Positions 13,201 through 16,517 of a DNA stretch of 20,989 bases are shown piece after piece. Each line of letters opens with the position of its first letter. Position 1 is the first letter of the stretch. The DNA is taken from positions 1 through 20,989 of IMG/VR virus record IMGVR_UViG_3300042731_000354. One strand, given 5' to 3'. Source of the stretch: a virus. Under the pieces are notes generated by a model that was given only the letters and a program-made list of their open reading frames with translations, had not been told where the DNA came from and searched no databases. Both the position numbers and the translations under genes were made by a program.

Positions 13201-13538
13201 CAGGTCTCAAACACTTGCTCAAACGTAGCCGTGACAGTAGCGCGGTTCAAATAAGGAATTGACTTAGACCATTCACGGCAAATGAACTTACTGACACTGG
13301 TTTCGCCAGGAGGCGTAAAGTCAAAGTTTTCCACCGCACCACGCGCGTCTAAGAACGCTTCAATCGTGTCAGCATCATTTTCCGACACTTCAAAGGTCAG
13401 GTTATAGACCTTCGGATTTTGCTGTATCCCAAACTGCGCACGCTGCTGGTAGCCAGAACCAAACTGTATTGCACGCACACGAGGCGCACTGCGTTTCTGT
13501 ACGCCATAAGTCGGGCTGATTGATGGGAAGGTTGCCAT
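13200..13538 (-). CDS. M: Minor tail protein M
   Basis: 112 aa, the same size as lambda gpM (109). It contains the family start with FPSISPTYGVQKRSAPRVRA, followed by an IQFGSGYQQRAQFGIQQNP strand, a YNLTFEV strand, an ENFDFTPPGE loop and a closing beta hairpin (VTATFEQVFE). This pattern is shared by the Phage_min_tail family, a tip protein that joins the tail tube to the L-K-I-J complex. Its ATG overlaps the tape measure stop in a TAATG arrangement, and its stop overlaps gene L, which fits tightly coupled synthesis of the tip proteins. Confidence 0.92.
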   Translation of the reverse strand: MATFPSISPTYGVQKRSAPRVRAIQFGSGYQQRAQFGIQQNPKVYNLTFEVSENDADTIEAFLDARGAVENFDFTPPGETSVSKFICREWSKSIPYLNRATVTATFEQVFET

Positions 13539-15499
13539 TAGCTCAGTAAGCCTCCAGGACGTTTTTGCTTGACCAGCTCAGCCTGTACTGCCGCTCCAAT
13601 AGCAGCACCCAGTGCCTTGGCGTTTGGCTCGTTGCCTTGTGCCTGCGTTCCTGATGCATCGACGTTTACAACAACGTTAGCTCCACCAAAGCTGCCTGAT
13701 GGTGCAATGCTGCCAGTGCGACCAGGCGTAAATAGCTCAGGACCTTTCTCACCGACCATGTAAGAACGACCGCCAGTTACCGTGCCGCCTTTGGCCTTGC
13801 CACCACCAAAGAAAGCAGACATTCCAGGAATCCCGCCTAGCGCAGTGTTAACACCAAACTGCAACAAGATATTTGCAATGTTCCGCAGCGTGTCAGCGGC
13901 AACGTCTGCCAGTGCTTTGGTGCCATCAACAGCAGCAGACAAAGCATCAACGACGCCGGTAGAAATAGATTGACCGATTGATTCATACATTCTATCCAGC
14001 TCAGTAATTGTGTTTTGCTGCTCTTTCAACTTTTTGGCCATATCGTTCTCGTCTTTCCGTCTTTGCTCATTTGCCCTGTTAATAGCTGCTGTGGCATTTT
14101 CTTGTTCATGCAAAGCAATTGTTGCCTGAAGCTCAGCCTTGAGTTGATCATCTGTTAAGCCTTTTGCATTCTCAAGGATGTCTGCAATCTGTATCTGTTG
14201 TTGAAATTGTCTCCGCTCTTCGCTAGTTAATGCAGCGGCCAGCAAGGTTTGTTGCTTGAGTGAACGAACTCTTTCGGCAGAAGCTTTCGCTATTTCTTTA
14301 GCAGCTTTTGCTGGATCTTTGCCGCCGCCGGTAGAGCTAGTACGGTCAAGCAACGCAGGTGGATCAGTCATAACTGTAGGCGTAAAGCCTGGACCTCTTG
14401 CATCTGTGACTCTGCGCTGCACTTCTTGATTGATCAAATCATTCGTGATCTGAGAAACAACCGACGAAGCCGAACCCTTATATGTCTTGCCAAGATGCCT
14501 TACAACAACTTCGCCAGCACCAAATGCTCCTCCTGGCATGGGACCAGCAAAACGCATCACCTCTTGCTCGGCTTCTAACTTGAAGCCCTGTTTTTGTTGC
14601 TCCGTAATTGACGCCGCCGCAAAGGCTTGATTGATACGATCAACAGTTTGGATCGCGAATGACAAAGCGCCCTTCAATGCGGGCGTCAACACTTCGCCAA
14701 TAGTTCGCGCAACACGCTCGATTTGATCAACCAAAGTGCTGAATTTGCCTGCGAGCGTGTCCGACTGAGCGATTGCGCCATTGGCATATTTGCCGCCTGT
14801 TTCTGTAATGTTTTGCAGGGCAAGATTTACGGCATCAGCACTAATTCGCCCGCCTTCTAATGCTTTGCGAAACTCGTCTGCAGTCAGCCCATACATTTTC
14901 TGTAGCTCATCCTGCAAACCAACGCCACGCTCTTGCAGCTGCAACAGCTCCTCGCCCTGCAATCGTCCTTTTGCCTGAATCTGGCCAAACGCTGTCGCAA
15001 TGCCGCCAAGGTCAGCGCCGGTTGCCCCAGCAACGTCTGCTAGACGTTTAGTGACATCAACAACTTGCTCAGTCTCGAACCCAAACGCTTTTAAACGTTT
15101 TGCCGTCTCAATCAGTTCTGTGCTTGTAAAAGGCGTTACCGCCCCAAACTCCTGTAATTCGCTAATAATATTTCGCGCGTTGCCCAGCGAGCCAGTCAAA
15201 ACTTCAAGGCTTTTCGTTTGACGCTCAAGCTCTGCGGTTTTGAAAATAACAAACTTGCCAGCCTGAAAAGCCCCAAAACCAGCGACTAAGCCACGGATAG
15301 CTCCTCCGAGCTTGTTTACTCCCTTTGAAGCGCGTTCAGCTACACGACCAGTTTCTTTAAATGCACGGTTTGTACGACGAATACCGCTTTGAGCTTTGGC
15401 AACCGAGGCTTCAAGCTTTTTTGTTTCAGACGTGACACGCTTGAGCGGATTGATCGCCTTAGAGGCATCAACAATAAGCTCAACAGATGACCTTGCCAC
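13538..15499 (-). CDS. H: Tape measure protein, GTG start
   Basis: 653 aa. The N-terminus is basic and helical. Residues about 85-275 form the tape-measure N-terminal domain, with TGSLGNARNIISELQEFGAV, FGQIQAKGRLQGEELLQLQE, and a TPALKGALSFA helix. Helical, Gln/Lys/Glu-rich sequence fills the middle (about 400-540). The C-terminus carries GGTVTGGRSYMVGEKGPELF at about 571-590, the tail-tip-side motif of many siphophages, and ends in a disordered Gly/Pro-rich stretch. By the rough rule of 0.15 nm per residue the tail would be about 98 nm long. The start is GTG (15497-15499) with no good Shine-Dalgarno. An in-frame TAG lies 18 bases upstream of this GTG, so no earlier start is possible. It lies 23 bases downstream of the GT stop. 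Confidence 0.92.
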   Translation of the reverse strand: MARSSVELIVDASKAINPLKRVTSETKKLEASVAKAQSGIRRTNRAFKETGRVAERASKGVNKLGGAIRGLVAGFGAFQAGKFVIFKTAELERQTKSLEVLTGSLGNARNIISELQEFGAVTPFTSTELIETAKRLKAFGFETEQVVDVTKRLADVAGATGADLGGIATAFGQIQAKGRLQGEELLQLQERGVGLQDELQKMYGLTADEFRKALEGGRISADAVNLALQNITETGGKYANGAIAQSDTLAGKFSTLVDQIERVARTIGEVLTPALKGALSFAIQTVDRINQAFAAASITEQQKQGFKLEAEQEVMRFAGPMPGGAFGAGEVVVRHLGKTYKGSASSVVSQITNDLINQEVQRRVTDARGPGFTPTVMTDPPALLDRTSSTGGGKDPAKAAKEIAKASAERVRSLKQQTLLAAALTSEERRQFQQQIQIADILENAKGLTDDQLKAELQATIALHEQENATAAINRANEQRRKDENDMAKKLKEQQNTITELDRMYESIGQSISTGVVDALSAAVDGTKALADVAADTLRNIANILLQFGVNTALGGIPGMSAFFGGGKAKGGTVTGGRSYMVGEKGPELFTPGRTGSIAPSGSFGGANVVVNVDASGTQAQGNEPNAKALGAAIGAAVQAELVKQKRPGGLLS

Positions 15500-15522: not shown

Positions 15523-16055
15523 CTACCGCCGCTTCCGTTTTGCGCGATCCATTGCCTCCTCCTCCTGCTCTCGCTTAATTTCGTAATACGCAGCAAAATG
15601 CACAAGCTCCGCATCGGTCAACTCAGTGCGGAGCCTGCTTACAGTCATGCCTAGCTCGCAGGCCAGATGAAACTCAAACAGAGTCCAGCTGTCCTGCTTT
15701 AGTCGTTTTTTGCTTCCTCCATCTCGGTCTCTTCGCCAAGACCAAACAAGAACAGCTCAAGCTCATTCAATACAGATTCAGGCAACTGCCGTTGCAGCTT
15801 CGCAGCATCAGCAGCGGCAAACGCTTTGCTGCCATCCTCCAGCTCAGCCATTTGACACAGCATCTGCGTGCTGATGTCTAACGCTTCGTCAGTGCCAGCC
15901 AAGCTTTGCGCCTTCTTGCGATCTGCGCGTGTGATCGGCTTGAAGAACAGATCGACGACTTTTTCACCGTCTGCGTTCTTCAGTTCAAATTTGCGACGCT
16001 GGTTGAGGTCAAAGGCCCCAACCAGCAAGTCAACAGTGCGTGACTGAGCAGGCAT
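15523..16055 (-). CDS. GT: GT tail assembly chaperone produced by -1 frameshift
   Basis: The G frame from 16055 is read to the A AAA AAC heptamer (15705-15711). After slipping back one base the frame stays open for 60 codons to a TAG at 15523-15525, giving a 177-residue product. The T part has clear protein character: WTLFEFHLACELGMTVSRLR, TELTDAELVHFAAYYEIKRE, then a Glu-rich and Arg/Lys-rich end. This F..HLA.....T...L...lT..El..w.aYy pattern is that of the T half of siphophage GT proteins, which bind the tape measure during assembly. It has no ATG with a good ribosome site of its own. The gap to the tape measure gene is 23 bases. That slipping occurs is inferred from the heptamer, the position and the frame. 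Confidence 0.82.
15699..16055 (-). CDS. G: Tail assembly chaperone G (unshifted product)
   Basis: 118 aa. It starts with MPAQSRTVDLLVGAFDLNQR and has the family strand KVVDLFFKPITRADRKKAQ, then helices (DISTQMLCQMAEL, AAKLQRQLPESVLNELELFL) and an acidic tail (GEETEMEEAKND). This layout fits the tail assembly chaperones placed between tube and tape measure in siphophages (gpG of lambda). The position directly after the tube gene and before the tape measure supports the call. A slippery heptamer lies in its last codons, so it should also be the N-terminal part of GT. The gap of 45 bases to the tube gene is among the longest in the window. No clear Shine-Dalgarno precedes the ATG. Confidence 0.8.
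   Translation of the reverse strand: MPAQSRTVDLLVGAFDLNQRRKFELKNADGEKVVDLFFKPITRADRKKAQSLAGTDEALDISTQMLCQMAELEDGSKAFAAADAAKLQRQLPESVLNELELFLFGLGEETEMEEAKND
15705..15711 (-). promoter_or_regulatory. Programmed -1 ribosomal frameshift site (slippery heptamer)
   Basis: On the minus strand the G frame reads GCA AAA AAC GAC TAA, so A AAA AAC is in the X XXY YYZ register. A GGAGG lies at 15716-15720, four bases before it. Seven bases after it, GCAGG (15693-15697) can pair with CCTGC (15658-15662), enclosing a smaller hairpin GGACTC/GAGTTT around TGTTT that includes two G-U pairs. The stem could promote slipping, but no energy was calculated. The -1 frame encodes the recognisable T half, which is the main evidence. 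Confidence 0.8.
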
Positions 16056-16100: not shown

Positions 16101-16517
16101 TTAGTTAGAGGTGATCGTGCCGCTGGTTTGGAACGATGCAGATACCGTTACAATTTCGCCAACAGTTGAGCTGATTTCAGCATTGCTGATGATTCCAGCA
16201 AAAGTAAAGGAATCAGCATCGTTAGTGGTGCCTTCGCGGAACAGCTCAAACGATGCGTCTACAGCGTCAGCAGTTTTTAAGACGTCATCCATAAAAGCCT
16301 TCTGAGTGGCGTCGCCCTCGTTGAAAATCAATTCAACGGACCCAGAGCCAGAGATCAAACCGCCAACGTAGTTTCGGAAGGTGTCGCCGTGAGCAGTTGT
16401 CTCTAGAACCTCTTTGTCAATCGACAGGCTCCAGCTACGAGTGCCAGCGACTGCAGCCAAAGTGCCACCGCCAGTCTCAAATTCAACAGAGCCTTGTTCT
16501 CCGCGAAGGATTGCCAT
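16101..16517 (-). CDS. V: Major tail tube protein
   Basis: 138 aa. It opens with MAILRGEQGSVEFETGGGTL and runs as alternating beta strands: WSLSIDKEVLETTAHGDTFR is the family core motif (W....eeVeTT.hGdt.r.y), followed by LISGSGSVELIFNE and FAGIISNAEISSTVGEIVTV and SASFQTSG. The tube-protein fold of siphophages gives this sequence pattern, and single-domain members of this size are common. It lies 2 bases after the tail terminator gene and before the G/GT chaperones, the expected order. It should form the stacked hexameric rings of the tail. Residues 135-138 (ITSN) are a short tail without an Ig-like domain, unlike lambda gpV. Confidence 0.85.
   Translation of the reverse strand: MAILRGEQGSVEFETGGGTLAAVAGTRSWSLSIDKEVLETTAHGDTFRNYVGGLISGSGSVELIFNEGDATQKAFMDDVLKTADAVDASFELFREGTTNDADSFTFAGIISNAEISSTVGEIVTVSASFQTSGTITSN

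Follow-up and report, generated by a model that had tools for sequence, protein, structure and literature searches.

A -1 frameshift is an established mechanism in phage lambda and in many other tailed phages (PMC5009743). In lambda it takes place near the end of G, T has no start of its own, and a longer GT product is made, with G binding the tape measure protein and the T part the major tail protein; only about one GT is required per 30 G (PMC5009743). The locus described here was found in a window comprising all 20,989 bases of the record of a marine virus of cyanophage type, whose structural genes lie on the minus strand, and it resembles lambda in the position of the predicted shift, the missing start of T and the longer predicted product. 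The two differ in the slip site, as lambda slips on GGGAAAG, whereas the present locus appears to use A_AAA_AAC together with a strong, conserved hairpin 7 nt downstream.

The G/T locus and its slip site

The genes are arranged in the order major tail protein, G, T and tape measure protein, the same place that G and T occupy in lambda, and the other neighbours (head closure, tail terminator, tail completion, major head and minor tail) complete an ordinary siphophage order. The features of the locus, in positions of the window, are:

16101-16517, minus strand: major tail protein, directly before G (phrog_10528, E 8.5e-26)
16055-15699, minus strand: gene G, putative tail-assembly chaperone, 0-frame product of 118 aa (ORF; phrog_20784, E 1e-36)
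15720-15716, minus strand: GGAGG, Shine-Dalgarno-like, upstream of the heptamer
15711-15705, minus strand: slippery heptamer A_AAA_AAC, in X_XXY_YYZ register with G, GC[A AAA AAC] GAC TAA
15705-15523, minus strand: predicted T half, 60 codons and a stop in the -1 frame entered by the slip
15701-15699, minus strand: stop codon TAA of G
15697-15658, minus strand: downstream hairpin, arms GCAGG (15697-15693) and CCTGC (15662-15658), with an inner CAG/CTG stem
15648-15646, minus strand: in-frame ATG, T codon 20, conserved in the clade of the window
15634-15606, minus strand: second downstream stem of 8 bp, GCTCCGCA (15634-15627) with TGCGGAGC (15613-15606)
13538-15499, minus strand: tape measure protein, directly after T (phrog_9959, E 1.8e-35)

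In agreement with the original prediction, which had placed an A AAA AAC heptamer in correct register with G, the 3' end of G reads GAG GAA GCA AAA AAC GAC TAA on the minus strand. Its statements that the -1 frame stays open for 60 codons and that T lacks a good start also hold: the stop of the -1 reading ends at 15523, giving a GT fusion of 177 aa in total, and the T frame, which opens at 15756, contains no ATG, GTG, TTG or CTG upstream of the heptamer. The ATG at T codon 20 was absent from that description.

G matches phrog_20784, a PHROG of unknown function. The T half matches phrog_337, "tail protein", with an E value of 2.9e-5, and positions 109-164 of the 195 positions of phrog_25875, "tail assembly chaperone", with an E value of 0.0037. 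Searches with G and T gave no match in Pfam, unlike for the lambda proteins, and no significant sequence match in the PDB. Neither protein strongly matches a named chaperone family directly, and the link is made via phrog_20784, to which the G proteins of the KBS-S-2A group also belong; five of ten members match phrog_344, "tail assembly chaperone", as well (E 2e-5). In hhalign profile comparisons the two G groups (the clade of the window and KBS-S-2A) are linked at a probability of 97%, and the two T groups at 99%. The similarity to known tail-assembly chaperones is of moderate strength. Gene order, PHROG matches and conservation together identify the locus as a putative lambda-type gpG/gpGT tail-assembly chaperone pair, with overlapping ORFs between the major tail and tape measure genes and an in-register slip site near the end of G.

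To evaluate conservation, 82 junctions were compared, 68 of which are distinct over the compared region. At 81 of them the slip site reads AAAAAAC and at the remaining one AAAAAAA; all have a single sense codon and then the stop after the slip site, T is always in the -1 frame and 60 aa long, and no upstream start codon for T is present at any of them. GCA and AAA are codon-invariant in all 71 distinct gene pairs and AAC is kept in 70, while of the 99 other columns of these genes in which the amino acid is conserved only 5 are codon-invariant, none of them among the 9 Lys or the 14 Ala columns; the sequences are related and their counts non-independent, and this contrast with the neighbouring columns serves as the control. 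Over eight codons, the first of which lies three codons ahead of the shift point, synonymous variation is down to 0.16 of expectation. Judged from these alignments, conservation of the predicted slip site exceeds chance.

The downstream hairpin and the reading of T

The complementary arms GCAGG and CCTGC, which the original prediction had noted seven bases downstream, are present with a 7-nt spacer from the heptamer and are conserved. When dinucleotides are simply shuffled, the 65-nt hairpin segment does not stand out (z = -0.84), but against synonymous-codon shuffles, in which the T protein is kept, it is clearly more stable, with -19.0 vs -10.8 +/- 3.1 kcal/mol and only 0.6% of the shuffles as low. 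In five relatives, 0 to 0.8% of the synonymous-codon shuffles are as stable as the native hairpin. T codons 14 (CTG/TTG), 15 (GCC/TGC/TCC) and 16 (TGC) have G, C and C as third bases in 71 of 71 sequences, the C of codon 15 being fixed although the residue alternates between Ala, Cys and Ser, whereas codons 12, 17, 18 and 19 vary freely in the same 71. Two versions of the 3' arm occur: CTGGCCTGC pairs GCAGG plus CAG, and TTGTGCTGC pairs GCAG plus ACA. The 5' arm GCAGGACA is paired either way, as both versions pair with it. RNAalifold detected little covariation in the stem, and none of the classical kind, because the core pairs are invariant; synonymous-codon shuffles and third-base conservation were therefore used as tests. 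Measured against the synonymous shuffles in six divergent members, the predicted hairpin is under selection.

An X_XXZ_ZZN heptamer followed by a 3' structure at about 5-9 nt, the form of a bacterial -1 signal, is thus present. The second stem lies about 70 nt past the heptamer, and all eight of its pairs are possible in 57 of 71 relatives. The upstream GGAGG mentioned in the original prediction does exist at 15720-15716, but it is not a conserved element, being present in only 11 of 71 relatives. At the level of the family an upstream Shine-Dalgarno-like stimulator is hence lacking, which does not disqualify the site, since this element is optional.

We consider it almost certain that these features represent a -1 programmed frameshift yielding a G/GT tail-assembly chaperone pair, a reading favoured by the gene order, the PHROG matches, the conservation of slip site and register, the selected 3' hairpin and the lack of an upstream start for T. 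From them we infer the slippage, the slip rate and the role of each product as follows. Most ribosomes would read G to its stop and produce the 118-aa chaperone, while a minority would slip back by one base, with tRNA-Lys and tRNA-Asn shifting simultaneously on A_AAA_AAC. The hairpin, located 7 nt downstream at the usual distance of a stimulator, would promote the slip, after which the ribosome would read T and complete the 177-aa GT fusion. If lambda is a guide, the tape measure protein may be coated by G, and the major tail protein may be recruited by the T part of GT. For A_AAA_AAC a low efficiency was described in E. coli (PMC4066793), and a low slip rate would fit a lambda-like ratio of the two products.

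It is very unlikely that T is instead a separate protein, translated without a frameshift from the internal ATG at 15648 or from an upstream TTG or CTG. This ATG is found at T codon 20 in 82 of 82 sequences of the clade of the window, and the record of Synechococcus phage S-H1 annotates a 47-aa ORF beginning at a TTG inside T. However, the conserved part of T (RLKQDxW..FEFxLACELG) is located upstream of the internal ATG, and the ATG itself is an improbable start because the MED4 clade has Lys in its place and the KBS relatives mostly have Tyr. An internal start would also leave the frozen heptamer and the hairpin unexplained. For these reasons an internal start for T was rejected.

Slippage of the RNA polymerase on the A-run, which would give mixed mRNAs in place of ribosomal slippage, is extremely improbable: the slip site does contain a run of six A, but six are short for RNA polymerase slippage, a selected 3' hairpin at 7-nt spacing suits ribosomal slippage, and in the A_AAG relatives described below only three A are found at the same place with the T frame still at -1. 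That the open -1 frame and the heptamer arose by chance, AAAAAAC occurring five times on both strands of the window, or that a sequencing error split one gene, has a negligible probability and is refuted by the same arrangement in 82 loci from independent contigs and the isolate genomes S-H1 and KBS-S-2A, with a kept slip site, T at -1 and no start.

Slip sites among the relatives

The predicted -1 frameshift on the heptamer is not the only kind of junction between G and T in these phages. In Prochlorococcus phages MED4-184 and MED4-117 and their metagenomic kin (including L083 1480-1530, L084, L089 and L090-L169), T is in the -1 frame at the same place, and no X_XXY_YYZ heptamer is present at the junctions of this clade, which read NNA AAG GAA TCY TAA RGGGGGA. 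Ahead of AAG stands GCA, GTA, ACA or ATA, a codon whose third base is A in 67 of 67 sequences, and everything past it is nearly fixed, for which reasons the slip is placed at A_AAG. In E. coli no other tetramer is as prone to shifting (PMC4066793). A stem GGGGGA...TTTTTCC is possible in this clade and synonymous variation falls to 0.15, while the folding energy is not clearly better than that of the shuffles, of which 7-15% are as stable. Of the 85 A_AAG sequences in a tree of 249 GT proteins, 84 cluster together (SH-aLRT support 99%) and the last is located on a long, uncertain branch; in the same tree A_AAA_AAC and A_AAA_AAA interchange several times. The mixed MED4-like clades were reached by a DNA pattern for the N-terminus of T; a profile scan for intermediate sequences returned mostly the same loci.

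KBS-S-2A itself and its near kin have T in the -1 frame with A_AAA_AAC as predicted slip site. Among its relatives, T is found in the +1 frame at 66 distinct junctions (L351, L352, L354, L360, L364, L365, L492-L567 and L570-L588). The motif ATG AAA AGC is found in 63 of them, the others being the variants ATG AAA AGT, CTC AAA AGT and CTG AAA AGC. At most of these junctions a stop of the T frame (aTGAaa) ends just before AAA, so that the frame must change between this stop and the stop of G. The motif fits a movement of the P-site tRNA-Lys from AAA to AAA, with AGC in the A site, which would be a forward slip. A -2 slip offers no re-pairing at these junctions. Assembly error is a poor explanation for the +1 frame, because many independent contigs carry the same motif. 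In a tree of the G part, which comprises 104 columns and has long deep branches, the +1 members are placed on two branches and two changes between -1 and +1 are needed. The direction of the shift thus appears to have changed within the family.

Two further junctions were read separately, CCCAAAG in cyanophage S-2L and GGGAAAC in Streptomyces phage Dryad; automatic junction calls for S-2L and Microcystis phage Mae-JY09 were unreliable and left out. In Mae-JY09 (L085) a T-like stretch, LGMTVARLRREMSAAELEQW, with GC-rich surroundings, is shifted by +1 against the ORF that lies upstream of it.

Overall, we think it probable that one family, defined by a phrog_20784 G and the T half, makes the same obligatory fusion by three slips: -1 on A_AAA_AAC or A_AAA_AAA, -1 on A_AAG, and +1 on AAA_AGC. 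All three involve lysine codons. The relatives seem to have replaced the heptamer slip by a shorter site in one lineage and by a forward slip in others. If this is true, evolution changed the type and the direction of the slip while the fusion was kept. No description of such a replacement inside a single phage chaperone family was found in the literature searched. The close relatives that differ in slip site and direction offer a natural series in which the replacement of a required recoding event can be studied, and isolate phages as well as the hosts Synechococcus WH7803 and Prochlorococcus MED4 are available for this.

Comparison with described systems

For the locus in the window the putative mechanism is already known, including the use of AAAAAAC in phage tail chaperones. 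Acinetobacter phages Loki and IME_AB3 were proposed, as a prediction, to shift frame on this heptamer in their tail-chaperone genes (PMC5313236), and A_AAA_AAC is listed for the haloarchaeal virus HCTV-2 (PMC5009743). It also occurs in KBS-S-2A. Given these occurrences, the original prediction was mistaken in regarding A AAA AAC as specific to this sequence. Loki, IME_AB3 and HCTV-2 are different phages, and their likeness to the present locus consists in the heptamer and the gene pair.

The nearest isolate is Synechococcus phage S-H1 (MK105819), with a G that is 80% identical and the same heptamer, spacer and stem. Its record differs in giving T as a separate hypothetical ORF, with no frameshift annotated; this ORF is located at MK105819 33780-33923. 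In the records of MED4-184, MED4-117 and KBS-S-2A the T region between G and the tape measure gene is left without a gene. No paper on a frameshift in these cyanophages was found by a search that reached few subscription papers. The locus in the window fills in a putative chaperone fusion whose annotation was missed in public cyanophage records.

A +1 shift in a tail gene, as proposed above for relatives of KBS-S-2A, is considered very likely in HSTV-2 (PMC5009743). Prochlorococcus phages MED4-184, MED4-117 and P-HS2, whose G is 57-58% identical, share with the present locus T at -1, the same register and a similar T length, but have an invariant A_AAG tetramer in place of the heptamer. A single-tRNA slip on A_AAG is described for the IS3 family and IS1222 (PMC4066793, PMC5009743); these resemble the MED4 relatives only, and the genes concerned encode transposases, not tail proteins.
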